47,759 nt of DNA from a virus. The notes below the pieces were generated by a model. It saw only the letters and a list, made by a program, of their open reading frames with translations, searched no databases and was not told the origin of the DNA. The position numbers and the translations under genes are program-made. Shown in pieces: positions 13,085-36,154 of the stretch. Each line of letters starts with the position of its first letter. Position 1 is the stretch's first letter. The stretch lies in the IMG/VR virus record IMGVR_UViG_3300048550_000984, positions 1 through 47,759 of that record. One strand, written 5' to 3'.

Positions 13085-13090
13085 TGTAAT
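13085..13090 (+). promoter_or_regulatory. Late-type promoter motif TGTAAT before 13098
   Basis: AGTGTAAT with exactly 7 nt between it and the ATG at 13098. One of ten similar motifs before structural or late genes; no -35 box is visible. Confidence 0.6.
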
Positions 13091-13097
13091 ATCTTAT

Positions 13098-13883
13098 ATG
13101 GCAGAAACTAAAATATCAGACTTAACTCTTTTAAGTGCTAACGAATTAGATGCGACTAATGATGTTTTCCCTATAGTTGATATAAGCGCAGATCAAACCA
13201 AGAGCATGAAAATAGCTGAACTAGAGGTTGGCTTATACCAAGGCGGAGATAGAAACCCAAGCTTTAATGACGTCTCTGCAGTTGACTTAACTATCACTAA
13301 TGACATAAGCGCTAACGGAACAGGCGATATTTTCTCTACATTAAACTCAAGCGTAGAATCCAACACAAACGCTCTTACTAATTTAGGTAATAGTTTTGTC
13401 ACTATAAACGATGCTCAAGATATTGCTGCGGTAAAAGTTTTTGATGAAAATGTTGGTTTTAATAACCATATTTCTATAGGTCAAAACGGAGGCGCAGATC
13501 TGGAATCTGCATCTATCGGAAACAACAGTCTAGCAGCTCTTGAGGTTCATAATGTAGTAGGGACTACATCTATTTATGCATCTAATGACATTGTCGCATT
13601 TTCTGACATTTCCGTTAAGGATAACATCAGGCCAATCCCTCATGCTATTCAGAAAGTTAAAAGGCTTAATGGTCGCCTATATACAAGAACAGACTCTGAA
13701 GATCAAGAAAAAATCCATATGGGGTTAATTGCTCAAGAAGTAGAACAAGTGATTCCAGAGGTCGTGAAAGACTTGCCTGAAGGTAAAAAAGCGGTAGCAT
13801 ACCAAAATATTATCGGACTATTAATTGAGGCTGTAAAAGATCAACAAAAACAAATTGAAAATTTAAGCAAGCAAATAAAATGA
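13098..13883 (+). CDS. Tail fibre with C-terminal S74-type chaperone domain
   Basis: 261 residues. The N-terminus (MAETKISDLTLL, then VFPIVDIS) matches a short virion-attachment segment that recurs in the proteins starting at 15702, 17069 and 34761. The middle is a short repetitive beta-type shaft. Residues about 168-261 form an intramolecular chaperone/peptidase S74-like domain (SDISVKDNI, then GLIAQEVEQVIPEVV and a C-terminal helix), which in known fibres trimerises the shaft and then often cuts itself off. The Ser-Asp of the SD-KDNI motif is present. A late-type promoter motif lies 7 nt upstream of the ATG. The stop overlaps the next gene in an ATGA. Confidence 0.85.
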   Translation: MAETKISDLTLLSANELDATNDVFPIVDISADQTKSMKIAELEVGLYQGGDRNPSFNDVSAVDLTITNDISANGTGDIFSTLNSSVESNTNALTNLGNSFVTINDAQDIAAVKVFDENVGFNNHISIGQNGGADLESASIGNNSLAALEVHNVVGTTSIYASNDIVAFSDISVKDNIRPIPHAIQKVKRLNGRLYTRTDSEDQEKIHMGLIAQEVEQVIPEVVKDLPEGKKAVAYQNIIGLLIEAVKDQQKQIENLSKQIK

Positions 13884-14455
13884 CACTTCCGTCTTCAGGG
13901 CCGATTTCTTTCAGCGAAATTATAGGTGAAAGTTCTTATGGTTTTGGGCGGCTATCTGAGCAAGACAAATTTATACAAGAAAAATTGGCAGATGAATATA
14001 GAACGGGAGATGTCAATGCTCCTAATTTTGCAGATGAAAAGATTAAATTTTCCGAATTCTATAACTTTGACGGATATGATGACAATAACTTCTTAATCTC
14101 TGAGTTTGAAGACGGCTCGCAGCCCCACTCCAGCAGGATAAAAGATACGGGAGCTTTTTTGATTACAGATGACAATGGTAGAATTTTAAGAACTGATGAT
14201 AAAGTAGGAAATGAAACTATCATAAAACATAAATCAGAAAGTTCTAGCGACGGTGAAGTGTATTTATTTGCTGAATTTTGTAGAAATTTTGGATTCCCGT
14301 ATGCAAGGGTTTTTTACGAGTTCACAAATAATGGTGACATTGAAAATTTATATTTGCAGGAATCAAGTTGGCCCGCAAACTCAGAAATTATTTTAATTAA
14401 TAACGGAACGGTAGCAAACCCTTCGAATTATGGGCTCTATACTCAACTATTATGA
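13880..14455 (+). CDS. Tail-associated protein with FSEI/FSEF N-terminal module
   Basis: 191 residues, no recognised enzymatic family. Residues 1-60 contain a repeated anchor pattern (ISFSEIIGE, later IKFSEFYNF) also found at the N-termini of the proteins at 14452 and 33497, probably the part that docks on the tail. A middle ITDDNGRILRTDD segment resembles the acidic repeat motif of the FnIII protein. Translationally coupled on both sides by ATGA overlaps, so it belongs to the fibre operon. Function beyond a virion part is unknown. Confidence 0.7.
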   Translation: MTLPSSGPISFSEIIGESSYGFGRLSEQDKFIQEKLADEYRTGDVNAPNFADEKIKFSEFYNFDGYDDNNFLISEFEDGSQPHSSRIKDTGAFLITDDNGRILRTDDKVGNETIIKHKSESSSDGEVYLFAEFCRNFGFPYARVFYEFTNNGDIENLYLQESSWPANSEIILINNGTVANPSNYGLYTQLL

Positions 14456-15459
14456 CCAAAATAAATTCCAAATCTTCACCAATTTCCTTAGGGAGAATAA
14501 GGGGTGAGGCTGGAGGATTAAACCTCACATCTTCTCTATCTACCAGAGATATATCTAATTTTGCATTTAATTCATCGTTCCCAAGGATAGGTGATGATGG
14601 GCAAACATTAAGCGGGTTTTCGCTAGGCGCTGATTTTAAGTTTTCTGAATTTGAATTTATGGATGCTAATCCTGGATATTATCTGATTGCAGACGGAGAA
14701 GATGATTACCCTACATTACTTGAGCGCTCTGATGATGGCTGGTTAGAGACAGATGACGGTGATAATTTAGTTAGCGATAATGAAAATGGAAATACGTCTG
14801 TTGTAGCAATACATATTATTAATGCGACTACATTAATTAACGTTAATCTAAGGTCAATTTTATTCCAAACTAGAGGATACACTACAGAAGCTGAAGCCAT
14901 TATATTTATAAATAGAGGAGTAGTATATTCCAAAGATAGTTCTTTGCCCGCCTTACAAACAGGCTCTGGGTGGGAAAATAACTCTTACATTAAAATTATT
15001 AATGAAGGCTTGATTTATGGAGCGGGAGGAGATGGTGGAAATGCATTAAATTATAACACAGACATAAATGGCAAAGATGGTGGAGATGCAATTAGCTTGC
15101 AATATAATGTTGAAATTGAAAATAATGGCGGAAGTATTTTTGGTGGCGGAGGAGGTGGGTCTGGCTCTCTTTACAGCGGGGGTGGTGGAGGCGCTGGCAT
15201 ATTTGCAGGAAAAGGCGGCTTTGGGAACGCTAATGGAAATGATGGGACCGCTATAAATGGCGGGGCTCCTGGAACGCTTTTTTCTGATGATACATTTGCC
15301 CCTATGCCTGGTGGAGATTTAGCTAAAGCAGGGTTTGGGAATGCGGGAAGTGGAGGAGCTGCGGGGCACTTATTACGCAAGAATGGCTTTTCAATAAACT
15401 CAAATACTTTGAATAATGGAAACTTTACTTCCACTACCTTAAAAGGCACAATAGGATGA
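14452..15459 (+). CDS. Glycine-rich tail tip or receptor-binding protein
   Basis: 335 residues. It begins with the shared anchor (ISLGRIRGE, then FKFSEFEF), continues with an acidic LETDDGDNL segment and a beta-rich domain, and ends in a glycine-rich region (about residues 185-325) with runs such as GGGGGGSGS and GGGGGAG. Glycine-rich tips built of polyglycine-II helices are known in T-even-type adhesins, where the loops between glycine stretches choose the receptor; the resemblance here is compositional only. The gene overlaps both neighbours by ATGA, so it is co-translated with the other fibre genes. Confidence 0.7.
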   Translation: MTKINSKSSPISLGRIRGEAGGLNLTSSLSTRDISNFAFNSSFPRIGDDGQTLSGFSLGADFKFSEFEFMDANPGYYLIADGEDDYPTLLERSDDGWLETDDGDNLVSDNENGNTSVVAIHIINATTLINVNLRSILFQTRGYTTEAEAIIFINRGVVYSKDSSLPALQTGSGWENNSYIKIINEGLIYGAGGDGGNALNYNTDINGKDGGDAISLQYNVEIENNGGSIFGGGGGGSGSLYSGGGGGAGIFAGKGGFGNANGNDGTAINGGAPGTLFSDDTFAPMPGGDLAKAGFGNAGSGGAAGHLLRKNGFSINSNTLNNGNFTSTTLKGTIG

Positions 15460-15689
15460 TACATTTATTCATAAACAAAAATGATCAAATTATTTTTGCA
15501 TTTCCAGCTGAATCAAAAAAGCCAAGATTAGATGCCATACAATATATAGATAAATCACACAATAAAGATGAAATAAAAGTTATAGTGGTAGATGATTCTG
15601 AATATATTAATGTAGAAAATATTATACGAAATAAAAGCGATGATAAAGAAAAACTTTATTATAAAAATGGATCAATTGTAAAAGTGTAA
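15456..15689 (+). CDS. Small hypothetical protein in the fibre operon
   Basis: 77 residues, no family recognised. It starts within the stop of the preceding gene (ATGA) and ends KV-stop; its GTG-TAA end forms the core of the late promoter motif of the next gene. Probably a fibre assembly helper or small virion part by position only. Confidence 0.6.
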   Translation: MIHLFINKNDQIIFAFPAESKKPRLDAIQYIDKSHNKDEIKVIVVDDSEYINVENIIRNKSDDKEKLYYKNGSIVKV

Positions 15690-15690
15690 T
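15685..15690 (+). promoter_or_regulatory. Late-type promoter motif TGTAAT before 15702
   Basis: AGTGTAAT, 11 nt before the ATG at 15702; the motif includes the stop codon of the preceding gene. Confidence 0.5.
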
Positions 15691-15701
15691 ATATACTATA
15701 T

Positions 15702-17087
15702 ATGGCTAATGTTAAAATAAGAGGTTTACCTACATTTTCAGATGATTTCACAAATGAATCAACTGATTTTTTAGTCATAACTGAATCAGGCGCTGAAACC
15801 TCTAACGCCGCACGGACTTCAAAAATATCTATAAATAAATTAAAAAAATATATAGAGATAGAAGATCTAGATGGCGACACCAAATTTAGCGTTCACACTG
15901 GAGATAATACTGCTTCGATAACTTGCGACGGACTTACTCCTGCAATTGTAAATAAATCAGGGATTAATATAAATCCATTAAATCTTTCTGCTCCGATAAA
16001 TTACGGATTAGGAATCTTTACATCTGATGGGATTAAATTCCCCGCAGGATCATCCGCCCAAAGACCAACTCCAACAAATGGCTTAATGAGATACAATACA
16101 GAACTTGGTCAATTTGAAGGTTACGTCAATAACGCATGGTCTCCATTTTCTAACTCCACGACAACCGTTAGTGGGCCCGACTTCTCAATTCAATACAAAA
16201 GCGGCTCATCATTCACAGGAAGCTCTAATTTAATATATTCAGAAGAACAATTGAGTGGTGCCAGTGGATTTTTTCATGATTTTAGAGTTACTGGAGATTT
16301 AGCTATTGGAGGAAATCTTTATGTTACAGGAGAAATGTTTGTAGAATCTGTGACTGATATCTCCACCACAGGCGATATTAGTGGGTATAATCTTAAAGGA
16401 ACTAGTGGAATTTTTGGCACCACAACAGGACAAATAGGAGGCTTCAGCCAAGAACTCACGATTAGCGGTGTTCCCGTATTAACTGGAATAGAAATAGGAG
16501 ATTTTGTAAGTACTGGAGAAACTGGCGTTTTCGTCACTACAGGTCAAACGGGAGATTTTGTAACTACTGGAGAAACTGGTGTGTTTGTCACTACGGGTCA
16601 AACGGGAGATTTCGCAACCACAGACTTATTAACAGGAATATCCGATGCAGACAATGATACTTATATAACAACAGAAGAAAGTTCAGATTTAGATAGTATA
16701 TGTTTTTATACATCAGGAAGTAAGAGTGTAGAAATTGACGCCAGTGGAGACCTGCTCTGTTATAATGATGTTGTTGCATACTATAGCGCCTCTGACCAAA
16801 GACTTAAGGAAAACATCCAAACAATAGATAGTCCGATAAATAAAATAAAACAAATAAATGGAATATCTTTTGACTGGAAAGAAGAAATGCAGCCAAAATA
16901 TTCTGGTAAAGATTACGGTGTGCTTGCTCAAGAAGTAGAGCTTGTTTTGCCAGAAGCCGTAAAAGATAAAGAAAATGGCTTTAAAAGTGTAAAATATAAT
17001 AGTATAATACCATTACTAATAGAGTGTATAAAAGATCAAGAAAAAAGAATTAAAGAATTAGAAAAGATATGTCAATCGAAAGTATAA
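15702..17087 (+). CDS. Tail fibre with S74-type chaperone domain and 18-residue repeats
   Basis: 461 residues. The N-terminal attachment segment (MANVKIRGLPTF, FLVITESG, KISINKLKKYI) matches the other fibres. A domain with LMRYNTELGQFEGYVNN-type sequence, common in phage fibres, follows around residues 125-150. A perfect in-frame repeat of 18 residues (unit GDFVTTGETGVFVTTGQT) occupies about 16497-16620, probably a triple-stranded shaft. Residues 364-461 are an S74-type intramolecular chaperone (SDQRLKENI, GVLAQEVELVLPEAV, then a helix). It is paralogous at both ends with the fibre at 13098-13883. Confidence 0.88.
   Translation: MANVKIRGLPTFSDDFTNESTDFLVITESGAETSNAARTSKISINKLKKYIEIEDLDGDTKFSVHTGDNTASITCDGLTPAIVNKSGININPLNLSAPINYGLGIFTSDGIKFPAGSSAQRPTPTNGLMRYNTELGQFEGYVNNAWSPFSNSTTTVSGPDFSIQYKSGSSFTGSSNLIYSEEQLSGASGFFHDFRVTGDLAIGGNLYVTGEMFVESVTDISTTGDISGYNLKGTSGIFGTTTGQIGGFSQELTISGVPVLTGIEIGDFVSTGETGVFVTTGQTGDFVTTGETGVFVTTGQTGDFATTDLLTGISDADNDTYITTEESSDLDSICFYTSGSKSVEIDASGDLLCYNDVVAYYSASDQRLKENIQTIDSPINKIKQINGISFDWKEEMQPKYSGKDYGVLAQEVELVLPEAVKDKENGFKSVKYNSIIPLLIECIKDQEKRIKELEKICQSKV
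16497..16622 (+). repeat. 54-bp tandem repeat in fibre gene
   Basis: Two full 54-bp units starting at 16497 and 16551, and a partial third from 16605. They encode 18-residue units in frame, with silent differences between copies, so the protein repeat is under selection. Confidence 0.8.
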
Positions 17088-17575
17088 AAGTAAGGGATTT
17101 AAATACAACATCTTCAATAGGTGAAAATGATTTGTTGTTAGTAGCTAAGGCAGACGGGACTACTCAGAATGTAAAAATTTCAGACTTGCTCACATATGTA
17201 TCATCGAACTCATCAAACTCATCAAACTCAGCAGGCTGGAGCAGCGGATGGGTTAACTATGCTGGTCTTACTTTTGTAGCTAATAACGCCACCCTATCTT
17301 TTACCCATAACTTAGGCACTGACGATCTTATATTTTCGTTGTTCGCCAGAGATACAGATGGCGGTGGAAACTCTGTAAGAGTAGATTTACAACCGACTAA
17401 TCCCCCCACTTCCTTGGGGGCGCAATTTTGGGGCGCACAAATACAAGGCATAGAAGCGAATACAGTTACGGTTCAACTTCCTTCGTATGGTGTTATAAAA
17501 CTTGAGGCTAACGGGAATTGGGGTTGGAAAAATTGGAATACTCAACAAATAAAGGTGGTAGCCAAGGTAATTTAG
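17069..17575 (+). CDS. Short tail fibre / tip protein
   Basis: 168 residues. N-terminal attachment segment (SIKVRDLNTT, LLLVAKADGT, VKISDLLTYV) like the other fibres, then a Ser-Asn linker (SSNSSNSSNS), then a C-terminal beta domain starting SGWV with FTHNLGTDD, a pattern seen at the ends of many phage fibres. The start lies 19 nt inside the preceding gene, so it is translationally coupled to the chaperone-bearing fibre. The exact receptor or partner is unknown. Confidence 0.75.
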   Translation: MSIESIKVRDLNTTSSIGENDLLLVAKADGTTQNVKISDLLTYVSSNSSNSSNSAGWSSGWVNYAGLTFVANNATLSFTHNLGTDDLIFSLFARDTDGGGNSVRVDLQPTNPPTSLGAQFWGAQIQGIEANTVTVQLPSYGVIKLEANGNWGWKNWNTQQIKVVAKVI

Positions 17576-17581
17576 TGTAAT
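17576..17581 (+). promoter_or_regulatory. Late-type promoter motif TGTAAT before 17589
   Basis: AGTGTAAT with 7 nt to the ATG at 17589; it follows the TAG stop of the previous gene directly. Confidence 0.6.
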
Positions 17582-17588
17582 ATAGAAT

Positions 17589-18560: not shown

Positions 18561-20023
18561 TAACCTAAATCAGCCCCAAGCGCGTCTTCAATAAAAGTAG
18601 CCTTGATAGAGTTATTGTCTATATATCTTTTAGAAAAACTCCAAGCATTGCATAGAAAGTATCTATCTGCGACATCATAAATTTCTGGTACAGAATCCCA
18701 TTTAAAGCGGACATAACCTTTTCTATTTTCGAGAAAATGTAAAATTGCATAAGCTTCTCTATCGTCTCTGTTATTAAACTGAACATCGAATACTAGCGGG
18801 TTTGTATTTCTTCCGTCAGATAGAACCTCGACTTTTTCTCCATCATAAACCTTACTTAGTATTCTTGATTGTTGAGAAATTGTAGAGGCGTAACTAGGTT
18901 CCCAAAAAAAGTTTTTAGTCCAATGTCTTTCATCGGTACTACCTGGAATTCTGTGATCATCTACCCATGTACCACTGCCAGTATCTAAACTTGATCCGTC
19001 TAGCCAAGAATTGAAAGCGCTCTGTAGCGGCCTTGCAAAATGACTTTTCTTGCAATAATAATATTTATCAAAAGTCTGCGCTTCATAATCAGGCTTAAAT
19101 ACTACTATATCCTTAGGGTAGGCCCACTGCGAAAGATAGTTTAGCCCATTGATTACGTATATCGAGGTAGCGTAAAGAGTGTCATCAGGCGTATGATACC
19201 CAAAAGGTTGCGTCCAAGGAACAACTCTGATTTCAAAAGGCTTAGAGTTATTATCAGTTGAGCTAGGAGGATCATAATAACCAGGATGTATTGATCTGAC
19301 ATCGTTGGTACTATCAGGCATCCCATAAGTGTCTAAAGCAGCTCTTTCTATAAGCCCCATTGTATACCAGGGAAGACTTAAAATACCATCAGTAAAATCA
19401 TTATTCAAAACCTTTAACATCTCTTCTCTAGTGAATATACTTCTCAAGTATTCTTTATAGCCTATTTTACAATAATCAGAATAATTTTTATAATGTTCTG
19501 CACTATTTGATGGTAAAAAGTTCGACACACTATCAGAATTAATTGATAAATACATAGTATGTGATTCTGTAGCTCGAGGAGCGTTCAATAACGTTTCTGA
19601 CGAACCAGGGACAGCGGACTCTATATTTAAAGAGCTCTGCTTGTTTGTTTTTAAATTGATAGATATATTATTTAAATTCTCTTTATTAAAAGTATGAGAA
19701 AATCCTACGCATCTAAATATATTTTTTTTGCAAAATGGGTCAGGAGGAACAAAGGGAAAATCAAGACCCTTAGAAGTCTCTAAAAAATCTATAATTTGCC
19801 TAGCTTCACTATCGTGCAAATTACTATAATTTAAAGATAGAGAAAACGTTATATTATTTACACCTTTAGGCGAAATTGCATAAAAACCATCTCCGTAACT
19901 AAACATTCGGATAGCTCCTTCATACGAAGCAGAATAACCGTAATCAGGAGCTAAGTATTGACCGTTTCTTTGTGGCCAAGTAGTTGTAAGGCCTTGTAAG
20001 CTAGTGTTGTATGTTCTGTCCAC
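18557..20023 (-). CDS. Minor tail protein, phage lambda gpL-like, duplicated core
   Basis: 488 residues. Two copies of a Phage_min_tail-like module: residues about 55-130 (EARQIIDFLETSKG, FPFVPPDPF, CVGFSHTF) and about 405-480 (REAYAILHFLENRKG, FRCW-type SWSFSKRY). In lambda, gpL joins the tail tip and helps start tube assembly. The central 250 residues are a large insertion rich in aromatic residues. The start is GTG (20021-20023), chosen because the late motif TGTAAT (20031-20036 on this strand) lies exactly 7 nt upstream, as for other genes here. Confidence 0.75.
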   Translation of the reverse strand: MDRTYNTSLQGLTTTWPQRNGQYLAPDYGYSASYEGAIRMFSYGDGFYAISPKGVNNITFSLSLNYSNLHDSEARQIIDFLETSKGLDFPFVPPDPFCKKNIFRCVGFSHTFNKENLNNISINLKTNKQSSLNIESAVPGSSETLLNAPRATESHTMYLSINSDSVSNFLPSNSAEHYKNYSDYCKIGYKEYLRSIFTREEMLKVLNNDFTDGILSLPWYTMGLIERAALDTYGMPDSTNDVRSIHPGYYDPPSSTDNNSKPFEIRVVPWTQPFGYHTPDDTLYATSIYVINGLNYLSQWAYPKDIVVFKPDYEAQTFDKYYYCKKSHFARPLQSAFNSWLDGSSLDTGSGTWVDDHRIPGSTDERHWTKNFFWEPSYASTISQQSRILSKVYDGEKVEVLSDGRNTNPLVFDVQFNNRDDREAYAILHFLENRKGYVRFKWDSVPEIYDVADRYFLCNAWSFSKRYIDNNSIKATFIEDALGADLGY

Positions 20024-20030
20024 ATTCTAA

Positions 20031-20036
20031 ATTACA
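20031..20036 (-). promoter_or_regulatory. Late-type promoter motif TGTAAT before the gpL-like gene
   Basis: AGTGTAAT on the minus strand, 7 nt before the GTG at 20023. The match in spacing supports the GTG start. Confidence 0.55.
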
Positions 20037-20037
20037 C

Positions 20038-20502
20038 TTATTGGCTTGATGGAGCGTCGTTTCCTGCAACTTGTATTGGCTTGCTTTCAAAAGAAAGGTA
20101 TGCAGAAACCAATTCTTTTAGTTCTTGATCATAACCGCTAGCTAAAGATCTGTATGCGCCCGCTGCAGTGTTCTTATTGGGTCTTACGATCATCGAGCCA
20201 TCGGAGTCACGTATTTGTATAAAGTCGCTTGATTTAGTGGCTCCCTGCAGAGTTTTTCGAGACATTGATGAGTTGAAGTTTTTTAGGTACATCGCTCGAT
20301 ATATAGCTTTTTCTTCATTTTTGAAGTCAGCTTCAGGCTCAATAACACCATTGACAACATCAAAGGATGTATGTATCATAGTATTAAGATTGCCTATATG
20401 AGAGTCTAACCATCCAGAAATAGAAGATACTGTAGCAACTTCTGTGTCTGAATCAAATTCATGATCAAATATTTCCTGAGCTAAATCTCCTATATTACTC
20501 AA
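20038..20502 (-). CDS. Putative head-tail connector / neck protein
   Basis: 154 residues. Mostly helical, with an N-terminal MSNIGDLAQEIF segment and a SISGWL motif, then an IQIRDSDGS loop. No domain is recognised with certainty. Its place between the capsid genes and the gpL-like tail gene is where head-tail adaptor or closure proteins are encoded in siphoviruses, so that role is inferred from position and size. It follows the 20504 gene by 1 nt, so it is co-translated with it. Confidence 0.5.
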   Translation of the reverse strand: MSNIGDLAQEIFDHEFDSDTEVATVSSISGWLDSHIGNLNTMIHTSFDVVNGVIEPEADFKNEEKAIYRAMYLKNFNSSMSRKTLQGATKSSDFIQIRDSDGSMIVRPNKNTAAGAYRSLASGYDQELKELVSAYLSFESKPIQVAGNDAPSSQ

Positions 20503-20503
20503 T

Positions 20504-20935: not shown

Positions 20936-20955
20936 ACCTTTTACCTTTCCTTTTT

Positions 20956-20984
20956 ATTATACAATGAATATACACTTTTTTCAA
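20956..20984 (-). promoter_or_regulatory. Sigma70-like promoter for the 20935 gene
   Basis: TTGAAA, 17-bp spacer, perfect TATAAT. The transcript would start near 20949 and carry a short leader with AGGAAAGG, unlike the leaderless genes. Confidence 0.6.
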
Positions 20985-26426: not shown

Positions 26427-26432
26427 ATTACA
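26427..26432 (-). promoter_or_regulatory. Late-type promoter motif TGTAAT before the portal gene
   Basis: GGTGTAAT on the minus strand, 9 nt before the ATG at 26417. Confidence 0.5.
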
Positions 26433-26448
26433 CCTATATATTATAATA

Positions 26449-26484: not shown

Positions 26485-28353
26485 TTATTTTATAAACATT
26501 GGCGTAAAGTCTACGTACTTTGGAGTCAAATCGACATTCATAAATTCATAGTACAATGAAGTCATCCAGTTGCCTAGAACTAATGCAGAGTAAGAGTCTT
26601 TTCTAGTTTTTTCGGGGCCCGTTTGTCTTTTTAAATTGTCAGGCAAGTCAAATGTCTGAGTTCCTTGGGGAGAAGTTTTTATTTGAATCAGAGCACACTC
26701 AGACTTGGTTAAGTTCATTAGATCGTATTGATGCTCAATGAGGTCAATCATTTTAGATTGGGGAGACTGATTCTTTTCTTCATTTTTTAAAAATTTTAAT
26801 TTCGTGATTGGTATTTTCTTTCTGCGTTGCATAGCATAATCTTCGTCAATAGCTCTTGACGCAAACCACAATCTTTTATGATCGAAATTCGCCTGAAGAG
26901 ATTCGTTCGCTCTTCTTATCCAGTCAGAACTAGGTTTTCTTAGGAAACAAATTCTTCTGTCCTGTTGGTTATATTGTTGCCTAACTCCCTTAAGGACATT
27001 CTGATAATCATTTAAGTCATCAAAATTAACATCTATTTGTTTAAAGTTAATATTATCTTTTTTAAACATAGAGCTTTCATTAACAGCATTAATAAATTGA
27101 ACGCCTCCCATATAGTCAGCTACAATACTAACAATATTAAATTTTTCTATAAGATATTTAAAATAGAACATATGATCTTGTAAACGAGTTCCAGACATTG
27201 CATAACTATGGACTACGGTCGCATTTCGCTTTTCATCATTTAATTTTAATATATGCATAGCAAAATCATCAGAGCTTTCACTTTCTGCCCAGCTAGGGTC
27301 AATAGCTAAAATATATTTTGCATCAGGTTCGCCCGCTATTTCCACACACTGCCCTTCTCCATCCTTTATTGTGCATTCCGCCATTCTAGAAGTCTTAAAA
27401 TATCCACTGCTATCATCTGTAAATATAGCATTAAACTCTCTATCAAACTGAGATTGACTCATTGTAGCTTTAGATTGATTAATCAAATTAACATCATACA
27501 ATTGCTTAGGAGCGCAATCATAACTAAAGTGCATAATAGATCTCCTAGCATTAGAGCCATCTTTATGGTCAACATGATTTAATATCAAATCTTCGAAATT
27601 AGAATATAATTTATACAAATATTCAAATTTATAACTAGCGGATGATAACATTATTAATTTATTGTTAGGCCATCTATATCTTTGATCTTCAGTCATTTCG
27701 CCTTTTTTTATCAAGTTTGTTTCAAGGTTAAATAACTCCTCTCTTTGGGTAGGATTTTCAACAACAGACAAGAATGGCACGATAACTTCATTGTATACTC
27801 TTTCAGGCATTAACAACATCTCATCAATAATGATTCTATGAAATCTAAAACCACGAAGCTTGGAACCATCGCCTAATGGCAGAGCTCTGATTCTGCTTCT
27901 ACCTATTTCCATCAACCACTCATCATTACTCTTGCTTTTTTTAGTAATGCAGCCTGCAAGCATTTTTGCCTGAGGTTTATTTGCAATATCTTCAATTTTT
28001 TTAAATATTTGCTTTGACTGCCTAAATGAAGCAGCTAATATCCCTATCTCTACGCCCTGATTAAGTATAGCGTCCAGGAAGGCGTAAATTCCTGTAGTAA
28101 AAGATTTTGACATACCCCGACTCCAAATACCTAGGAAGTAGTCAGTTTCAAACATACCCTTAATCGCCATGTGTTGAAATGGAAATAAATCTACTCCTGA
28201 CAATAAACTAGTTGTGAAAGTTATATTTTCTCTTAAAAATTGATATAACAATATTTTAGCTTCTTCTTCTTCTAGAAAACCTTTATCTAAAAGTAATTTA
28301 TTTATATCCTCCTTAAAAGGATTGTTTGGTTGATTTCCTGGTTCCCAGCTCAT
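26485..28353 (-). CDS. terL: Terminase large subunit
   Basis: 622 residues from the ATG at 28353, which overlaps the upstream stop (ATGA); an upstream in-frame extension to 28473 would run inside the nuclease gene and is not used. ATPase domain: Walker A SRGMSKS (78-84), Walker B IIIDE (174-178), coupling motif LSSASYK (236-242). Nuclease domain: D352 in ILAIDPSW, D413 in IVADYMGG, plus D362/D363. It cuts and pumps concatemeric DNA into the prohead through the portal. The Walker A is a variant with Met-Ser in place of the usual residues before Lys-Ser, common in phage terminases. Confidence 0.92.
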   Translation of the reverse strand: MSWEPGNQPNNPFKEDINKLLLDKGFLEEEEAKILLYQFLRENITFTTSLLSGVDLFPFQHMAIKGMFETDYFLGIWSRGMSKSFTTGIYAFLDAILNQGVEIGILAASFRQSKQIFKKIEDIANKPQAKMLAGCITKKSKSNDEWLMEIGRSRIRALPLGDGSKLRGFRFHRIIIDEMLLMPERVYNEVIVPFLSVVENPTQREELFNLETNLIKKGEMTEDQRYRWPNNKLIMLSSASYKFEYLYKLYSNFEDLILNHVDHKDGSNARRSIMHFSYDCAPKQLYDVNLINQSKATMSQSQFDREFNAIFTDDSSGYFKTSRMAECTIKDGEGQCVEIAGEPDAKYILAIDPSWAESESSDDFAMHILKLNDEKRNATVVHSYAMSGTRLQDHMFYFKYLIEKFNIVSIVADYMGGVQFINAVNESSMFKKDNINFKQIDVNFDDLNDYQNVLKGVRQQYNQQDRRICFLRKPSSDWIRRANESLQANFDHKRLWFASRAIDEDYAMQRRKKIPITKLKFLKNEEKNQSPQSKMIDLIEHQYDLMNLTKSECALIQIKTSPQGTQTFDLPDNLKRQTGPEKTRKDSYSALVLGNWMTSLYYEFMNVDLTPKYVDFTPMFIK

Positions 28354-29279
28354 TTTTGTTTGTCTAGATAATATTGAATGTCCGTGCTCCATAAAGCATC
28401 TCCAAGAACTAATAATTTTGGAATAATTTCTACAGATTTTTCTCGATTTCCCGTGAAGATAAATTGGCAGCATCCCGCGTATTCATGAGATAATACTCTC
28501 ATATTGTGCCATATGTAATTTAAGTTAGATCGGTGTTTGGAAAAATTGTTTCTCTTTTTTATTTTTTCTATATCGCTTTCGGTAACCACATATAAATAGC
28601 ACCCCATGTTTCTACACCTATCTAATTCTTTTTTAAATCGCTCAAAACCTGTAGACATTGTTGATTTAAAATCTTGCTCTCCTTTTCGGTCAACATAAGT
28701 ATATGAGTAATAATCGCCAGATGAAGTATAATCTCCAAAATCTAATTTCATTGTTTTAGAGTTGGGAAATGATAATGGCTGTTGTTCTCGAGTATCTATA
28801 AATATTGGCGTATCTTTGTATTTATCAGCGTAAAACTCTTTACATATTCTTTTGGTAAATATTGGCTCAACCCCTGTAAGCTTAGAAGCCTCTGTATATG
28901 ACCCAAAAAGCATTTTATAGCTATCTATAGGTGGTAAGTCATATATCTGCAATTCTATATGGCTAGGGGCCTTTAAGAGGTTTTTCTCATCTATTCTATT
29001 TTTGAGCTCGCTAACTGCATAATGTTTAGCGAGTTTATTATCTTTGTTTTTTATAAGCCATTGCACCATTTGCCATCTGGTTGAAAATCTTTTGCGAAAA
29101 TAATCTTTTTTGTTTTTAAAAGGTAACGGCTCACCATTATACCAATTCTTCATTGGATAATAAGTCGTATAGTATTCGCTCAATAAAATGTTATGAGACT
29201 TAATATGTATATGAAGTGCTCTTTCAGACTTAAAGGATTTTTTACAAACCTTGCATATATGTTCTACATTCTGATCCAT
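28350..29279 (-). CDS. C2H2 zinc finger plus ERCC4-type nuclease
   Basis: 309 residues. An N-terminal C2H2 finger (C9, C12, H25, H29) is followed by a helical linker and a C-terminal ERCC4/XPF-like nuclease core: DTREQ (162-166), FGDYT (181-185) and DRKGEQD (197-203), with Asp in place of the usual Glu of the ERK motif. Such nucleases cut branched DNA. Its location directly upstream of and overlapping terL suggests resolution of branches or trimming before packaging, a role T4 endonuclease VII fills by a different fold. The C-terminal VLGDALWSTDIQYYL is unassigned. Confidence 0.82.
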   Translation of the reverse strand: MDQNVEHICKVCKKSFKSERALHIHIKSHNILLSEYYTTYYPMKNWYNGEPLPFKNKKDYFRKRFSTRWQMVQWLIKNKDNKLAKHYAVSELKNRIDEKNLLKAPSHIELQIYDLPPIDSYKMLFGSYTEASKLTGVEPIFTKRICKEFYADKYKDTPIFIDTREQQPLSFPNSKTMKLDFGDYTSSGDYYSYTYVDRKGEQDFKSTMSTGFERFKKELDRCRNMGCYLYVVTESDIEKIKKRNNFSKHRSNLNYIWHNMRVLSHEYAGCCQFIFTGNREKSVEIIPKLLVLGDALWSTDIQYYLDKQK

Positions 29280-29839
29280 AATATTAACGCATATTTTGTC
29301 CAGCTATCTGTAGGTTTAGACTCATGTAGCATGTCATAATTGGGCTGATTATTTTTTAAATTTTTCCACATCAACATTTTGCCCGCCTCAGGCTTAAAAG
29401 ACATCTTGAATTTAGGAAATCTAGTTTCTCCACCTTTTTTTCCACTGTTGAGGTAAAATAGTATACTATACCATCTTTGCTTTCCAAACTGACTTGGTAA
29501 CATAGCATATGGGTTTTCAAAAAAATCATAATGTTCTTCATAGTACATTGATGGCTCATATTTAATGAATTGCGCTTCTTCTTGAAATAAAATGTTAGTT
29601 TTTGTAATTTGACTACAATATTTTTTAATTTCTGAAACTACAGGGTGCGATGATATTGCGACAGTATTTAGATTATTTCTTTGACCATCGTTAACTCCAG
29701 CGACAGTTGCAGATTTACATTGCTCAGAAAATGAATTAATTAATAAATTACATGCTTCTTTTGTGAGGACTGACTCAGCTGTGAATATCTCATCATAGAT
29801 ATTCAGGAGCCTTTGGGGCTGGATATACTTATACTGCAT
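29264..29839 (-). CDS. 2-oxoglutarate/Fe(II) oxygenase, prolyl 4-hydroxylase-like
   Basis: 191 residues. The iron-binding facial triad is visible: H103 and D105 in EEHYDFF and H172 in LHESKP, and K182 in TKYALILWIR can bind the 2-oxoglutarate carboxylate. The GGETRFPKF segment is typical of the P4Hc fold. These enzymes hydroxylate proline or other residues in proteins, or nucleobases; the substrate here is unknown. It overlaps both neighbours in the packaging operon, so it is made with late proteins and may modify a virion protein. Confidence 0.85.
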   Translation of the reverse strand: MQYKYIQPQRLLNIYDEIFTAESVLTKEACNLLINSFSEQCKSATVAGVNDGQRNNLNTVAISSHPVVSEIKKYCSQITKTNILFQEEAQFIKYEPSMYYEEHYDFFENPYAMLPSQFGKQRWYSILFYLNSGKKGGETRFPKFKMSFKPEAGKMLMWKNLKNNQPNYDMLHESKPTDSWTKYALILWIRM

Positions 29840-30890
29840 CGTCTTTAGATAATCCTAATATTCTTGCTTTCCAGGAGTCCATAGATTCCATGCGATCTGC
29901 TTCCTCTTTCACTAACTTTTTTTGCATTTCAGCCATTCTTACCATCACAGCTCGCTCTTTTTCATTTTGGAAAGTTTCAACTAATGATAATATTGATGCA
30001 TTTTGAGATTGGCGATTCTCTAGCCTTTTAGCTCGATCACCATTTAATTTTTTGATTAGAGATTCCATTCTTTTCTCACACTTATCGTACTCTTCACTTT
30101 TTGTCTTAAGTAGCTCGGCTAGCCTTACAGTCATCTCTTGTTGTGAATCAGCATCATTAAACATTCTATTTAATTTCTCAATATTTCTACTTACATTTCT
30201 CAGGTTAATGTAATCGATGCAAACATTAATATATAAATTAATTTCATCGCTAGTTAAATCAGGTTTTCCCCAGGTAGCTCTTACAAATTCAGCTTCGAAT
30301 AAGTCTCTATCATCTTTATCTCTATAATTATTTATTGTATTTAAAAATCTTGGCGCAGATAGAAATAGTAACATTTTTTCTGCTGATTTTTTCTCTACTA
30401 AGCCTATTTCGTCAGGATTCAATTCGTCACCAGTATAATTTGATATTAAGTTAATTACATCGTTAAAACTGTCTGGTGGCTGATACTTCTCGCGCACTCT
30501 TGGTTTTTCATCTTTTTGCAGCAAGTCTGGCGCTACATCTTTAATATAAGCCATAACCGTTCGCTGCTCCGTAGATAGCTTTTTTACCTCTTCATCGGGG
30601 AATATGATTTGAGCAATTTGGAAAGAGTTTAAGCCGTCTTCTGCTAAGTCTAGAATCTCATCTTTTTGTTCATCAGCGAGTTCTATTGGCCCTTTTTTCT
30701 CTTTTTTTGTTGTATTGTAATCTAAACTCTCTTCAACCAAGAAGTCTTTAACAGCTCTACCTTCTTTTGATCTTCCATCTAGAGTATCGTCTAAAAAAGT
30801 ATTTTGAGTGAGTTTTATTAAATCTGGAATTTTTTTGTGATTTTCCCTTAGGTAGGTTTTTTGAGTTTCCGTTAATTCTATTTTGCTCAT
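29829..30890 (-). CDS. Helix-rich protein, possible small terminase subunit
   Basis: 353 residues. The N-terminal half contains an HTH-like segment (EILDLAEDGLNSFQIAQIIF), the C-terminal half is a long charged coiled coil (about 230-340). It ends by overlapping the oxygenase gene and begins within the stop of the sigma-like gene (ATGA). DNA-binding plus oligomerising helices close upstream of terL fit a small terminase subunit, but no family-specific motif is seen, so this is inference. Confidence 0.45.
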   Translation of the reverse strand: MSKIELTETQKTYLRENHKKIPDLIKLTQNTFLDDTLDGRSKEGRAVKDFLVEESLDYNTTKKEKKGPIELADEQKDEILDLAEDGLNSFQIAQIIFPDEEVKKLSTEQRTVMAYIKDVAPDLLQKDEKPRVREKYQPPDSFNDVINLISNYTGDELNPDEIGLVEKKSAEKMLLFLSAPRFLNTINNYRDKDDRDLFEAEFVRATWGKPDLTSDEINLYINVCIDYINLRNVSRNIEKLNRMFNDADSQQEMTVRLAELLKTKSEEYDKCEKRMESLIKKLNGDRAKRLENRQSQNASILSLVETFQNEKERAVMVRMAEMQKKLVKEEADRMESMDSWKARILGLSKDDAV

Positions 30891-31603
30891 AAAATAATAT
30901 CCTTTCTATCAATAACTTCTTTTGCTTTCTCAATGAATATTTTCTTTAGGTTTTTTAATTGCTTGTATCCAGCCTTTCTGCCCTTTTCATTACTTTTATA
31001 ACCCATCTTTTTAGCAACCTCTTCTTCTGGTAGATGTTCAACATATATCATTTTATAAATTGCATAATGTTTATCAGATAACTTAAACTCCATTAATGTG
31101 TGCAATTTTCTTTCTGCTTCGGAAATATCAGTTAATTCCTCTGATATATTATATACTTCCTGAGGATGATGCTCTAAAGCTAATGGCATTTTTATATCAT
31201 GAGCACTTTTTTTCGTTTTCTCCCATTTAGAATATAATGGACACTCTGAACATTGAACCCCGCTTGGAGTGAATCCACATAAGCCAGTGTGGCCCTCTTC
31301 ATGTTCACTAGCCGAAGATTGAGCGAATGGGCAGTTTAAACAAGGTCTAGCAAAGTTAGTATAATAATTCCTGAATATATTCTTAATTTGATTGGATATT
31401 ATTTTATTTATCCAAGGAGCTAAACTTCTTTTCTGGTCCCATTGATCCCATTTTTTGTAAATATGAGCACGAATTATTTGTTGGACATCATCGTAATCCA
31501 TCCATGCGAGAGCGTGGAGGCGCCATTTGTGCTTTCGTTTACGCAATTCATTATCAATTACATCAACACAGTCTTCGTAGCTTAATTTTTCCTTCCTAGT
31601 CAT
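30887..31603 (-). CDS. Phage RNA polymerase sigma-like factor with cysteine-rich insert
   Basis: 238 residues from the ATG at 31603, which overlaps the zinc-ribbon gene by 8 nt. Residues about 30-85 resemble sigma region 2 (MDYDDVQQIIRAHIYKKW, SLAPWINKIISNQIKNIF), and 165-225 resemble region 4 (LPEEEVAKKMGYKS as helix-turn-helix). Between them is a Cys cluster (C88, C91, C109, C118, C121) likely to bind metal, unlike ordinary sigma factors. It may direct host polymerase to the AGTGTAAT signals before the structural genes; that link is inference from co-occurrence. T4 gp55 is the closest functional parallel. Confidence 0.7.
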   Translation of the reverse strand: MTRKEKLSYEDCVDVIDNELRKRKHKWRLHALAWMDYDDVQQIIRAHIYKKWDQWDQKRSLAPWINKIISNQIKNIFRNYYTNFARPCLNCPFAQSSASEHEEGHTGLCGFTPSGVQCSECPLYSKWEKTKKSAHDIKMPLALEHHPQEVYNISEELTDISEAERKLHTLMEFKLSDKHYAIYKMIYVEHLPEEEVAKKMGYKSNEKGRKAGYKQLKNLKKIFIEKAKEVIDRKDIIL

Positions 31604-31940
31604 CAATATCGGTCTGCTTTTTGCTTTTCCTGCATAACTGCATACCTTCTTTGATAAGATCTTCGCTATCATTACTTGACTTAGAAACCTTTCTTTTAGG
31701 GGATTCGGAGATATTTTTTAAATCACCTCCAGAAATAACTCTATTACCATTGCTCGCATCTATTTCGTACTCTAATTTAGATATAGATGGAATTTTTTCT
31801 ACAACAATATCATCAACTTGAGAGTTGTCTACAGAAGCTTTTGATCCATCCATGCTGCTACCGCATGAAGGGCAAAATTTAGGAGAAGGAGATGTGTATT
31901 CTATTTTGTGACCACAGTTAGTGCAATAAACTATATTCAT
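31596..31940 (-). CDS. N-terminal zinc-ribbon protein
   Basis: 114 residues. A zinc ribbon with C6-x2-C9 and C23-x2-C26 is followed by an acidic, Ser-rich tail without clear structure. It is translationally coupled to the sigma-like gene. A small zinc-ribbon protein beside a sigma factor could be a coactivator or polymerase-binding protein, but nothing in the sequence proves it. Confidence 0.65.
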   Translation of the reverse strand: MNIVYCTNCGHKIEYTSPSPKFCPSCGSSMDGSKASVDNSQVDDIVVEKIPSISKLEYEIDASNGNRVISGGDLKNISESPKRKVSKSSNDSEDLIKEGMQLCRKSKKQTDIDD

Positions 31941-31973
31941 AGTTAATTATATAATTAATTAAATAAAATTCAA

Positions 31974-32540: not shown

Positions 32541-32561
32541 CGTATACAAAGATATACACAA

Positions 32562-33290
32562 TTATTTTTTATTTTCAAGTTTTCCAATTATAAATTTAAG
32601 CAATTCATCTCGCATGATGTCATCTTTTGTAAATCGAAAGCAGTGAATGCCTTTCAATTTACTGTCTTCGTCATTAAATAAATCGTACATCGGTCCGAAT
32701 CCGCTTTTTCCATTAATGTCGCTCTGCATAAAATCTCCACATATAAATAATTTACTATTTTTACCGAGTCTAGTTACTAGAGTAGTCAGCTCTTTAAATG
32801 TAAAGTTCTGCGCTTCATCAGCCACAACTATTTTGTCTATCCAATTAGCGCCTCTAAGGAAATTAATGGGCAACGCATCTACCCTTTCATCCATTAGTTC
32901 TTTCATCACCGAGGGAGCTGTATTTTTAGCTGGTAACATTTCATCTAATTTGTCTTTTAAGGGAGCTATATATGGATTAAATTTATCTGCAATATCGCCT
33001 GGCAAAGCGCCAAGCCCTTTATCAGCACTTTCAATTACAGTTCTAATATACATTAAATCATAATCATTATTATTGCTTAAATGCCTTAATGCGGAATAGA
33101 CAGCCATATAAGTTTTTGAGCTGCCTGCTGGTCCGCATATAAACATTATGCGCGTATCTTGATCTAAAGAAAGAGATAGAAACTCCTTTTGTCTTTCAGT
33201 TAATTTTTTATTCTCAACCTTAAAACCTGGGCTAGCTAATTGAGGTATTTTAAACGCCTCTTCTTTTTTCGTAGTTTTTTTACGTGGCAT
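32562..33290 (-). CDS. phoH: PhoH-like ATPase
   Basis: 242 residues. P-loop GPAGSSKT (53-60), Walker B VVADEAQN (155-162), and the TRLGKNSKLFICGD sensor strand with GD near the end are PhoH hallmarks. PhoH-like genes are common in aquatic phages; the biochemical role is unsettled (ATPase, possibly RNA-related). It shares a palindromic promoter region with the divergent gene at 33330. The basic N-terminus MPRKKTTKK is usual. Confidence 0.9.
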   Translation of the reverse strand: MPRKKTTKKEEAFKIPQLASPGFKVENKKLTERQKEFLSLSLDQDTRIMFICGPAGSSKTYMAVYSALRHLSNNNDYDLMYIRTVIESADKGLGALPGDIADKFNPYIAPLKDKLDEMLPAKNTAPSVMKELMDERVDALPINFLRGANWIDKIVVADEAQNFTFKELTTLVTRLGKNSKLFICGDFMQSDINGKSGFGPMYDLFNDEDSKLKGIHCFRFTKDDIMRDELLKFIIGKLENKK

Positions 33291-33306
33291 GTTATTTAAA
33301 TATATT

Positions 33307-33320
33307 TTACACTAGTGTAA
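33307..33320. promoter_or_regulatory. Perfect 14-bp palindrome TTACACTAGTGTAA, divergent late promoters
   Basis: Each half is the AGTGTAA late motif, one facing PhoH (TGTAAA at 33306-33311, 15 nt before its ATG), the other facing the gene at 33330 (TGTAAT at 33316-33321, 8 nt before its ATG). The site could be used as one bidirectional promoter. Confidence 0.6.
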
Positions 33321-33329
33321 TTAATTATA

Positions 33330-33518
33330 ATGAATAAATTTCAAATTTTCCAAAGATTATGCGAGCACTTAGGTCCGCGTGATGCGGCTATGTGGTTAGG
33401 AGAACCAAATAAGAAGTTAAAAGGAGCTTATCCTGCAGACTACATAAAATCTGGGAACCTTAAGCCATTAATTAAAATAATAGAAAAAGAATTCCCATGT
33501 TTGACCAAGGGGAAATAA
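33330..33518 (+). CDS. Small protein resembling the toxin-binding domain of MbcA/ParS/Xre antitoxins
   Basis: 62 residues. The pattern DAAMWLGEPNKKLKGAYPADYIKSGNLKPLI matches the short C-terminal domain (DUF2384) of Xre/MbcA-type antitoxins, where it caps RES-type NAD-degrading toxins. The helix-turn-helix part of such antitoxins is absent and no toxin gene is nearby. It might neutralise a host RES toxin used in defence, or be a structural module; both are inference. It shares 22 bp with the next gene. Confidence 0.6.
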   Translation: MNKFQIFQRLCEHLGPRDAAMWLGEPNKKLKGAYPADYIKSGNLKPLIKIIEKEFPCLTKGK

Positions 33519-34741
33519 AGTTTTCTGAAATTAGTGGTTTTTTAGAAAATAATTCTAAAAAAGTTAGTACATCCAGTATTGCTGGATGGAGCGCGCCATA
33601 TAAGATGCCGAATGAACTTAACGATCAAGGTACATCTATTGGGTTACTGGCTCCTGAGGGAAGTACCTTCAAAACCTATCGGTTTTCTGAATTTAGAGGA
33701 ATAGTTAAAGCAACACCTCCTAACATAACATCTGATTCAATTATTAATATTGAAACTAATAGTAGAGAATTTAATTTTTCTTATCAAATTGTAGCTGATA
33801 ATATGATTGGTGATATTAATTATCCATTTTTATATATTGCTATTAATTATCCTGCTGGTCTTACATTTAATTCTAATACAGGATTATTGCAAGGTACTAT
33901 TAATTTAGGTGATTTAGGTTATAGTGCTGGAGATGATATTGAAATAGCGTTTACTGTTTTTGCTGATAATTACGCTGGAAGGGAAAGTATGGAAGTAACG
34001 GTCAATGTGGAATGGAATGAGCCGCCGACCATAACGGTTATTGGAAGCAGTTTTGTGCAAAATTTTAATGGAGTGCCCTATAATGATGCAGGCGCAACGG
34101 CAAACGATCCTGAAGACGGAGATTTAACCAGCTCAATAATTACAACAAGTAACGTGAATACTAATGTTAACGGAGTATATGAAGTATCTTATCAGGTAAC
34201 TGATTCTGGTGGGTTGACATCATCTGTAAGTAGAACTGTAGTTGTTATTAATAACCCTCCTGTTATTAGTTTGCTTGGTAGCCCTATAGTCAATGCACCT
34301 CAAGGATCGACTTATATTGATGCAGGTGCAGTTGCGTTTGATAAAGACGATGGTGATATTACAAACAGAATAACTATAGAAAATACAGTAGATACATCTA
34401 TATTAAATAATTATTCAGTTGTTTATAGCGTGACTGATTTTGATGGAGGTTTTAGTACAGTATCTAGATCTGTTAATGTTTTTAATATATGTTCTATAGC
34501 CCAAGAAAATGGTGATAGCCTTAATGCAGAAGATAATCAAACGATAGATGTTGAATTGTGTCCTGATTTCTGTAGCTTACTACAAGAAGATGAATTTCCA
34601 ATTTATACTGAAGATGGAGTATATTTAGATATAGAAACTTGCGGCGAATCAATTGAAATAGACTTATGCAGCTTACTTAGAGAAAATGGGACTCAAATAA
34701 ACACAGAGGGCGGAGAAACTTTAGAGGTAGAAATATGCTGA
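33497..34741 (+). CDS. Fibre with Ig-like (DUF5011-type) domains
   Basis: 414 residues. Anchor N-terminus (IKFSEISGF, later YRFSEFRG) shared with the proteins at 13880 and 14452. A cadherin/He_PIG-like domain follows (about 75-170), then two tandem DUF5011-type Ig domains (about 175-250 and 253-328) with NDAGATANDPEDGD and DAGAVAFDKDDGD loops. The Cys-rich tail has three repeats of a CSLLxEDEFPI/ENG-type unit, shared in part with the C-terminus of the FnIII protein. Likely a surface-binding decoration or fibre. Confidence 0.75.
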   Translation: MFDQGEIKFSEISGFLENNSKKVSTSSIAGWSAPYKMPNELNDQGTSIGLLAPEGSTFKTYRFSEFRGIVKATPPNITSDSIINIETNSREFNFSYQIVADNMIGDINYPFLYIAINYPAGLTFNSNTGLLQGTINLGDLGYSAGDDIEIAFTVFADNYAGRESMEVTVNVEWNEPPTITVIGSSFVQNFNGVPYNDAGATANDPEDGDLTSSIITTSNVNTNVNGVYEVSYQVTDSGGLTSSVSRTVVVINNPPVISLLGSPIVNAPQGSTYIDAGAVAFDKDDGDITNRITIENTVDTSILNNYSVVYSVTDFDGGFSTVSRSVNVFNICSIAQENGDSLNAEDNQTIDVELCPDFCSLLQEDEFPIYTEDGVYLDIETCGESIEIDLCSLLRENGTQINTEGGETLEVEIC

Positions 34742-34747
34742 AAGTAG

Positions 34748-34753
34748 TGTAAA
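34748..34753 (+). promoter_or_regulatory. Late-type promoter motif TGTAAA before 34761
   Basis: AGTGTAAA with 7 nt to the ATG at 34761. Confidence 0.5.
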
Positions 34754-34760
34754 CCATATT

Positions 34761-35357
34761 ATGGGTACTAAAATATCAGAACTTTTAACAGCGTCAGGAT
34801 CAGACATTAATTCTTACTCCAGAGTTCCTGTAATTGTTGGAGACGGAACCACAATGGCAACAAAGTCAATTGAGCCAAAATATCTTGGAGGTCAATTATT
34901 AGGAGTTAGACAGGCTATTTTCGATGATGATTCTGTCATAGGTGGATCTGGCGAAGGGACTACAGGAGATCTGAATACAGTTGACGCTTTAACTTTGTAT
35001 TCTGGTGATTATATTTTAGATTGGGATATCAACTTAAACCAGTCGGCAACTGGAAGCGGAGTATTCTCTGGGGATGCAAATATAGCATTTACAGGAGCTG
35101 GAGTGAGTCCAACTTGGGAAAAAGTGCAAAATTTTCATATCTATCATAGCGGCGAACCCGAAGACTATTATAAAAACAAATCAATTCACTTAACTCATGC
35201 TTTAGACTTGAATACTGGTTCTGGTGATTTTGTATTCCAAGTAAATGTTGACTTACCTGACTCAGGATTAAATGTTCACGACTTTACTGTTAAAGTCACA
35301 AGTTGTGCAGATGTTGCTGGAGTTTCTTCTGCAGCATTCCCCACAGGTTCTGTATAA
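34761..35357 (+). CDS. Tail fibre or tip protein with shared attachment segment
   Basis: 198 residues. The N-terminus (GTKISELLTASG, RVPVIVGDGT, TKSIEPKYLGG) matches the attachment segments of the fibres at 13098, 15702 and 17069. The remaining beta-rich part (ADVAG, SGDFVFQVNVD) is unassigned. It ends convergently with the oxygenase gene at 35360 with 2 nt between the stops. Confidence 0.65.
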   Translation: MGTKISELLTASGSDINSYSRVPVIVGDGTTMATKSIEPKYLGGQLLGVRQAIFDDDSVIGGSGEGTTGDLNTVDALTLYSGDYILDWDINLNQSATGSGVFSGDANIAFTGAGVSPTWEKVQNFHIYHSGEPEDYYKNKSIHLTHALDLNTGSGDFVFQVNVDLPDSGLNVHDFTVKVTSCADVAGVSSAAFPTGSV

Positions 35358-35359
35358 TA

Positions 35360-35947
35360 TTATAATTTATTTTTTTTAAACTCTAAATATAAAATTATTC
35401 TATCTTTTTTTCCTGCGTTTATAGCAAAATGAGGATAGGCTCCGTTAAATATTACATAATTGCCAGTTTTATGTTCAAAAAAATCTCCATTAACGCAAAG
35501 ATATGATTGCATCGGCTCTGGCGCGTCAAGAGAGATGTGCATTTGCGCCAATTTTTCTGTAACCATTTCTGGATGAGTGTGAGTTCCTAATATTGATTCA
35601 CCTTTTAGTATGTTTAGTGCCGCAACTTTTATTCCTTTTATTTTTTTTAATAACTTTATAGTTTTTGGCATATTACTGTGCGGTACTTCTTTATCATGAA
35701 TAATTAATCCATATTGAATCCAGCTTTTATTTACCTCGCCTTTGTTATTCCACCCATCAACCCATCCATTTTTTTTATTTAATTTAATTTTTTTTAATAT
35801 TTCTTCAGCTACAACTTCATGATCTTTATTAACTCTATTTATATTTAAGTTATAATTGTCGAGGCGCGAAGATTCCTCTTTAATAGTTTTCCAATTTTCG
35901 ACTAACTCAGTTAATTGAGGGAAATCACTAAGTTCGTAAAAAGACAT
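35360..35947 (-). CDS. Aspartyl/asparaginyl beta-hydroxylase-like oxygenase
   Basis: 195 residues from the ATG at 35947 (TAATG overlap with the upstream gene); ten extra in-frame residues upstream are not needed. A cupin-like strand set with GTHTHPEM and a second His in AYPHFAINAGKKDRIILYLEF fits the Asp/Asn hydroxylase family (PF05118 type), with Arg for 2-oxoglutarate. It is the second iron/2-oxoglutarate enzyme in the window, of a different family from the one at 29264. The substrate is unknown; a fibre or capsid protein is possible. Confidence 0.7.
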   Translation of the reverse strand: MSFYELSDFPQLTELVENWKTIKEESSRLDNYNLNINRVNKDHEVVAEEILKKIKLNKKNGWVDGWNNKGEVNKSWIQYGLIIHDKEVPHSNMPKTIKLLKKIKGIKVAALNILKGESILGTHTHPEMVTEKLAQMHISLDAPEPMQSYLCVNGDFFEHKTGNYVIFNGAYPHFAINAGKKDRIILYLEFKKNKL

Positions 35948-36141
35948 TAAAGTTTGTCGTAATCTGCTTTGCTGCAAAATTTTGTTAATTTAGTTCCATC
36001 TTCATCCACGGCTTTAAGCGCATAACGCTTAGATGTCTTCCCTCCCTTAGTAACCATTTGATAAGTTTTCTTTTTGACTAGTTCGGCGGCTATCTGAACT
36101 TTAGTCTTCTTTTTTACATTATAAAACTCAACTTTTTTCAT
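35947..36141 (-). CDS. Small basic protein with late-type promoter
   Basis: 64 residues, strongly basic (KKVEFYNVKKKTKVQIAAEL). A beta-rich nucleic-acid-binding fold is possible but no family is recognised. The late motif TGTAAA (36149-36154) stands 7 nt before the ATG, so it is grouped with the late genes. It is coupled to the hydroxylase gene. Confidence 0.6.
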   Translation of the reverse strand: MKKVEFYNVKKKTKVQIAAELVKKKTYQMVTKGGKTSKRYALKAVDEDGTKLTKFCSKADYDKL

Positions 36142-36148
36142 ACTTTGC

Positions 36149-36154
36149 TTTACA
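36149..36154 (-). promoter_or_regulatory. Late-type promoter motif TGTAAA before 36141
   Basis: GGTGTAAA on the minus strand, 7 nt before the ATG. Confidence 0.5.

Follow-up and report, generated by a model that had tools for sequence, protein, structure and literature searches.

The window analysed here, the whole 47,759-base viral record IMGVR_UViG_3300048550_000984, carries a short word, GTGTA(A/T), at a nearly constant distance before the start codons of many genes. This word probably defines a second, phage-specific promoter class. With a probability of about 0.8, GTGTAW (W is A or T) serves as a -10 element that is read by a phage sigma factor of the extracytoplasmic function (ECF) type, with transcription starting approximately 7–8 nt downstream. 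In the proposed cascade, the host sigma70 holoenzyme would transcribe the early genes together with the gene of a phage sigma factor, here called S1. Host RNA polymerase carrying this ECF-type factor (most likely S1) would then recognise GTGTAW without a conserved -35 element, and GTGTA(A/T)(A/T) would act as the -10-type element of the structural and other late genes. Transcripts would mostly begin at the start codon or within 1–2 bases of it.

The window sits in reverse orientation inside a longer viral record of 193,844 bases (G001). It was compared with the related records G002 (203 kb, terminase 94% identical), G005 (211 kb, 69%), G003, G004, G006, G007, and G008. Records G001–G005 are the five longest, and G006 and G007 are incomplete fragments. 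Genes come from a simple open reading frame (ORF) caller, and some of the assigned starts, as well as the counts, could therefore turn out slightly different.

The Word and Its Sites in the Window

The first-pass annotation of this DNA had pointed to TGTAAT or TGTAAA before ten genes, mostly preceded by AG or GG and in six cases with exactly 7 nt to the start codon. All ten sites were found, the six 7-nt gaps were recovered, and AG or GG precedes nine of the words, the exception being the site before 24444 (TG). The word itself had to be widened. TGTAAT or TGTAAA is indeed present at the ten sites, but the consensus is broader, GTGTA(A/T), and two extra sites in the window match it. The putative promoter words are as follows, with gaps counted from the word to the start codon:

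13083–13090, +, AGTGTAAT, 7 nt before ATG 13098 of a tail-fibre gene; gap of 7 kept in G002
15683–15690, +, AGTGTAAT, 11 nt before ATG 15702 of a tail-fibre gene; identical gap in G002
17574–17581, +, AGTGTAAT, 7 nt before ATG 17589 (323 aa); kept in G002 and in locus L012 (58% protein identity)
20031–20038, -, AGTGTAAT, 7 nt before GTG 20023 (488 aa, minor-tail-like); GTG and gap kept in G002
20969–20975, -, GTGTATA, extra site, 33 nt before ATG 20935; the leader has the Shine-Dalgarno sequence AAGGAAAGG; also in locus L007
24452–24459, -, TGTGTAAT, 7 nt before ATG 24444 (535 aa); shares bases with the alternative ATG 24453
26427–26434, -, GGTGTAAT, 9 nt before ATG 26417 (654 aa, portal-like)
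32553–32559, -, GTGTATA, extra site, 12 nt before ATG 32540 of a GAF-domain gene
33306–33313, -, AGTGTAAA, 15 nt before ATG 33290 (PhoH)
33314–33321, +, AGTGTAAT, 8 nt before ATG 33330; together with the adjoining back-to-back PhoH site it forms TTACACTAGTGTAA
34746–34753, +, AGTGTAAA, 7 nt before ATG 34761 (198 aa)
36149–36156, -, GGTGTAAA, 7 nt before ATG 36141 (64 aa); kept in G002

In G005, the ortholog of the GAF-domain gene is preceded by GTGTAAA, with 8 nt between the word and the ATG. The genes behind the sites encode tail fibres, tail and virion proteins, a protease, and the portal-like protein, whose identity was assigned by position and size only; from this content we infer that they form a late class. 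Two start codons that the annotation had derived from the spacing gain support from relatives. The GTG at 20023 is the one kept in G002, and at loci L012 and L014 the motif before the 24444 ortholog reads GTGTAAC, so the rival ATG 24453 is absent there.

The word is not abundant as such. TGTAAW occurs 92 times in the window against 83.6 ± 9.2 expected, and the signal is therefore positional. In an unsupervised scan, every 6-mer was counted at every gap of 0–24 nt upstream of candidate starts. GTGTAA at gap 8, which is the same as TGTAAW at gap 7, ranked first in the window (6 observed, 0.02 expected), in G001 (17 against 0.08), in G002 (16 against 0.10), in G005 (8 against 0.06, with another 7 against 0.06 one base further), and in G006 (4 against 0.05). 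The scan of G003 gave GTGTAT (4 against 0.03), and the core GTGTA at gap 9 was the top 5-mer in G003, G006, and G007. Among the 52 copies of GTGTAAW in G001, 18 stand exactly 7 nt before the ATG or GTG start of an ORF with 60 codons or more. At gaps of 7–8 nt in the same record, GTGTAA was counted 21 times, whereas its other 89 letter permutations averaged 0.58; the runner-up, AGTGTA, represents the same sites shifted by one base. The possibility that the motif is equally common in coding sequence was also checked, and the word proved 14-fold denser between genes (1.63 per kb) than within them (0.115 per kb).

Conservation among Relatives

Orthologous upstream regions were filtered for redundancy before GTGTA was counted. 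The core was present before all 10 orthologs of the portal-like gene (26417), all 19 of the 535-aa gene (24444), 12 of 15 of PhoH, 4 of 5 of a Clp-like gene, and all 5 of a 2949-aa gene, with shuffled sequences giving an expectation of 0.3–1.2 in these five sets. It was not found before an operon-internal 370-aa gene (0/13) or a helicase gene (0/4). Before the portal, PhoH, and other orthologs, GTGTA is retained at protein identities as low as 42–60%.

The most enriched word upstream of the sites is TACAC (10 observed, 1.6 expected), and these are divergent copies of the same element. The perfect dyad TTACACTAGTGTAA between 33290 and 33330, both of whose sites are kept in G002, together with the TACAC enrichment, would suit an operator bound by a regulator in place of a core promoter element. 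This is the least probable of the explanations considered, and we regard it as very improbable. The sites are mostly single, and an operator needs no fixed distance to a start codon. Moreover, at divergent genes with back-to-back sites, the distance between the two words differs among relatives, as would be expected of independent divergent promoters.

At portal orthologs only (e.g., loci L035, L023, and L018), repeated ACTTTT words (TAACTTTTAACTTTTATAGACTTTT) lie upstream of GTGTA; perhaps they are an activator site.

Promoter-Like Geometry and Probable Leaderless Transcripts

The annotation had seen no -35 sequence common to its sites, and the larger sample agrees with it. Across 76 non-redundant sites, the relative entropy stayed at or below 0.13 bits at every position of the upstream 50 nt. 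The same genome provides a yardstick in its presumed early class:

36800–47759, small-gene region with sigma70-type promoters (TTGACA-17-TATAAT) 6–7 nt before ATG

Promoters of this type peak 6–7 nt before ATG, and reversed controls gave almost none. Since the sigma70-type TATAAT ends 6–7 nt before ATG, the late word occupies the place that a -10 element would take if transcription began at the start codon or close to it. As judged from the sequence, GTGTAW most likely acts as a -10 element without a detectable -35, and the mRNAs behind it probably have no leader or a very short one.

The relation to ribosome binding points the same way. Over all loci, a Shine-Dalgarno-like word was present in 25 of 62 gaps of 17–35 nt and in only 1 of 73 gaps of 10–16 nt. 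For example, before the 2949-aa gene in G004, G005, G006, and G008, the word lies 20–23 nt from the start, with a Shine-Dalgarno-like word between them. Furthermore, the word can directly follow an intrinsic terminator, as at 148007 in G001 (AACACCCCGAAAGGGGTGTTTTTTT; the G002 ortholog is alike), at 149043 in G005, and at 37321 in G006. These terminator-adjacent sites precede unrelated genes in three divergent lineages, and about 15 nt remain there for the start of the transcript.

Shine-Dalgarno sites, too, are typically found 7 nt from the start codon, and GTGTAW could in principle be a translation signal, that is, a non-canonical ribosome-binding site. We consider this improbable, only slightly less so than an operator. 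Base pairing between the word and the conserved 3' end of 16S rRNA would be poor. Its distance from the start can exceed 20 nt, and in those cases an ordinary Shine-Dalgarno sequence often lies between the two. Operon-internal genes have Shine-Dalgarno sequences without GTGTAW, and the word can stand directly after a terminator. The proposal of a -10-like late word without a -35, giving leaderless mRNAs, is thus consistent with the position, density, and conservation of the word, with its adjacency to terminators, and with its inverse relation to Shine-Dalgarno sequences.

The Candidate Sigma Factor

A candidate reader of GTGTAW is encoded in the window, in an operon with its own promoter:

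30887–31672, -, ECF-type sigma factor S1 with region 2, a Cys-rich insert, and region 4; candidate GTGTAW reader
31596–31940, -, zinc-ribbon protein gene directly upstream of S1; same position in all eight relatives
31946–31973, -, sigma70-type promoter TTGAAT-16-TATAAT, 5 nt before ATG 31940, predicted to drive the zinc-ribbon/sigma operon

Among 27 orthologs of S1, Sigma70_r2 was matched in 26 and TIGR02937 (sigma70-ECF) in all, with the window member scoring 40.5 bits, just below the curated cut-off of 42.9. The structure model of S1 contains two helical domains, and its best Foldseek matches are ECF sigma H and L, of modest significance (E 0.024). Searches for S1 in phages by tblastn and in PDB by phmmer found nothing. 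All eight relatives have the gene, close to the terminase and behind the zinc-ribbon gene. The TATAAT of the operon promoter is kept in close relatives, and GTGTA is mostly absent from this position (4 of 19 upstream regions, 1.25 expected). S1 is the likely reader of GTGTAW. The zinc-ribbon gene has zinc-ribbon Pfam matches below the curated cut-offs. Its product is possibly a co-factor of S1, and it may, more speculatively, be an analogue of T4 gp33. Since the first ~23 residues are missing in most orthologs, the true start of S1 is probably ATG 31603, which makes its reading frame overlap the zinc-ribbon gene at that gene's end.

The same promoter class might instead be read by another sigma factor of the phage, S2 (198 aa; G001 175589–176182, minus strand; L091:15589–16182), with S1 serving another class or acting as a regulator. 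In its operon, S2 is accompanied by a dUTPase-like and a nuclease-like gene, as read from the sequence. A Sigma70_r2 protein of this kind is encoded in all five longest records, which weighs in its favour to the extent that presence does not separate S1 from S2. Nevertheless, an assignment to S2 seems unlikely. The word is nearly constant, and S2 diverges more (28–35% identity to G003–G005) than S1 does (51–59%). The S1 neighbourhood near the terminase is fixed, and S2 was not found in G006 and G007, which carry the motif, both being incomplete fragments.

Several observations weigh against a GTGTAW promoter read by S1. No -35 element is seen, even though S1 possesses a region 4. G004 and G008 both encode S1 but show only a weak signal; a search of these two records for an alternative word gave no clear one, and G004 shows a weak GTGTAA. 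Approximately 40% of the GTGTAAW copies in G001 lie inside coding sequence, which means that the 7-mer cannot suffice by itself. Finally, 6 of the 24 sites with gaps of 7–9 nt in G001 are less than 15 nt behind a gene on the same strand, and layout alone therefore does not make every site the head of a transcription unit.

Comparison with Known Phage Late Promoters

The logic of T4 late promoters, with a different word, had been suggested for these sites. What the two share is a single -10 element, lacking a -35, in front of late genes and (predicted here) a phage sigma that reads it together with host RNA polymerase. The likeness is one of logic only. T4 late promoters use the word TATAAATA, which differs from GTGTA(A/T), with gp55, gp33, and the gp45 clamp. 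Unlike gp55, S1 has both regions 2 and 4, and the transcripts here apparently start at or next to start codons. Profiles of S1 and S2, which are shallow, gave no significant hhalign match to T4 gp55. A gp45-slide_C match was obtained in G005 only, below threshold (E 1.2e-4), and G001 encodes a clamp-loader-like protein.

A closer parallel is phage phiEco32, whose ECF sigma gp36 recognises tAATGTATAtA at a distance of 6–8 nt before the transcription start (PMC4281155). Middle and late promoters of this sigma36 type occur in Kuravirus and also in phages SU10 and 7-11. Both systems would combine a phage ECF-type sigma with host RNA polymerase (predicted here) and one short element that contains TGTA (PMC4281155, PMC4331800), and the start-codon spacing of GTGTAW would be consistent with the 6–8 nt between motif and start site in phiEco32. 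In contrast to about six sites in all in phiEco32, GTGTA(A/T) abuts start codons in G001, where at least 18 copies share a single exact gap. S1 differs from gp36 in its Cys-rich insert, and hhalign detected no significant similarity between the two (probability 0.1%). By analogy, the GTGTAW system would work like T4 late transcription and, more closely, like that of phiEco32 sigma36, without being assigned to either.

Late promoters of the AR9/phiKZ type (AACA-6N-TA/G; TATG) are likewise short phage-specific elements, and they are read by phage multisubunit RNA polymerases (PMC5312081). Unlike in those phages, a search of the five longest records here for the Rpb1 domain-2 family found none, and a multisubunit RNA polymerase of the phage's own was rejected on this basis. 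AR9 leaders measure 26–491 nt and are not leaderless. Among the papers listed by a literature search for the word, all were unrelated.

Phage Clade and Other Genes

A nucleotide search of isolated phages returned zero matches to the window, and the nearest terminases among isolated phages are less than 30% identical. Four matches were found in GTDB genomes, in taxonomically discordant metagenome-assembled genomes labelled Halobacteriovorax, uncultured bacterium, Flavobacteriaceae, and Verrucomicrobiales. We lean towards the view that these records form an uncultivated clade of ~200 kb phages with largely leaderless transcription programmes, an early one of sigma70 type and a late one under their own sigma, in which an ECF-type sigma with a Cys insert reads a conserved -10-only GTGTAW. 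A concrete hypothesis on promoter, start site, and sigma is thus available from sequence alone for a widespread marine phage clade without a close isolate in the searched collection. This hypothesis fixes many start codons and divides the genes into two expression classes. The compact pair of sigma and promoter may help to study how ECF-type sigma factors function without a -35 element. Should leaderless expression prove the rule for the first genes of both classes, the phage would translate its messages in a way that is unusual for so large a phage.

Several other genes were noticed. The terminase gene (26485–28473) probably starts at an ATG ~40 codons inside the longest ORF, because most relatives match only from residue ~40. 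Transfer-messenger RNA (tmRNA) genes are phage-encoded in G001 (L084:9003–9400) and G005 (L105:15016–15391), with Rfam RF00023 scores of 130 and 128 bits and the tag peptides ANNYMATKTVLKLLA and ANNIVRFEDFTACGEELALAA, respectively. In the window, an aspartyl/asparaginyl beta-hydroxylase-like gene lies at 35360–35977, and a 2OG-Fe(II) oxygenase-like gene at 29264–29839 is shared, among the relatives checked, only with G002 and, weakly, with G008.

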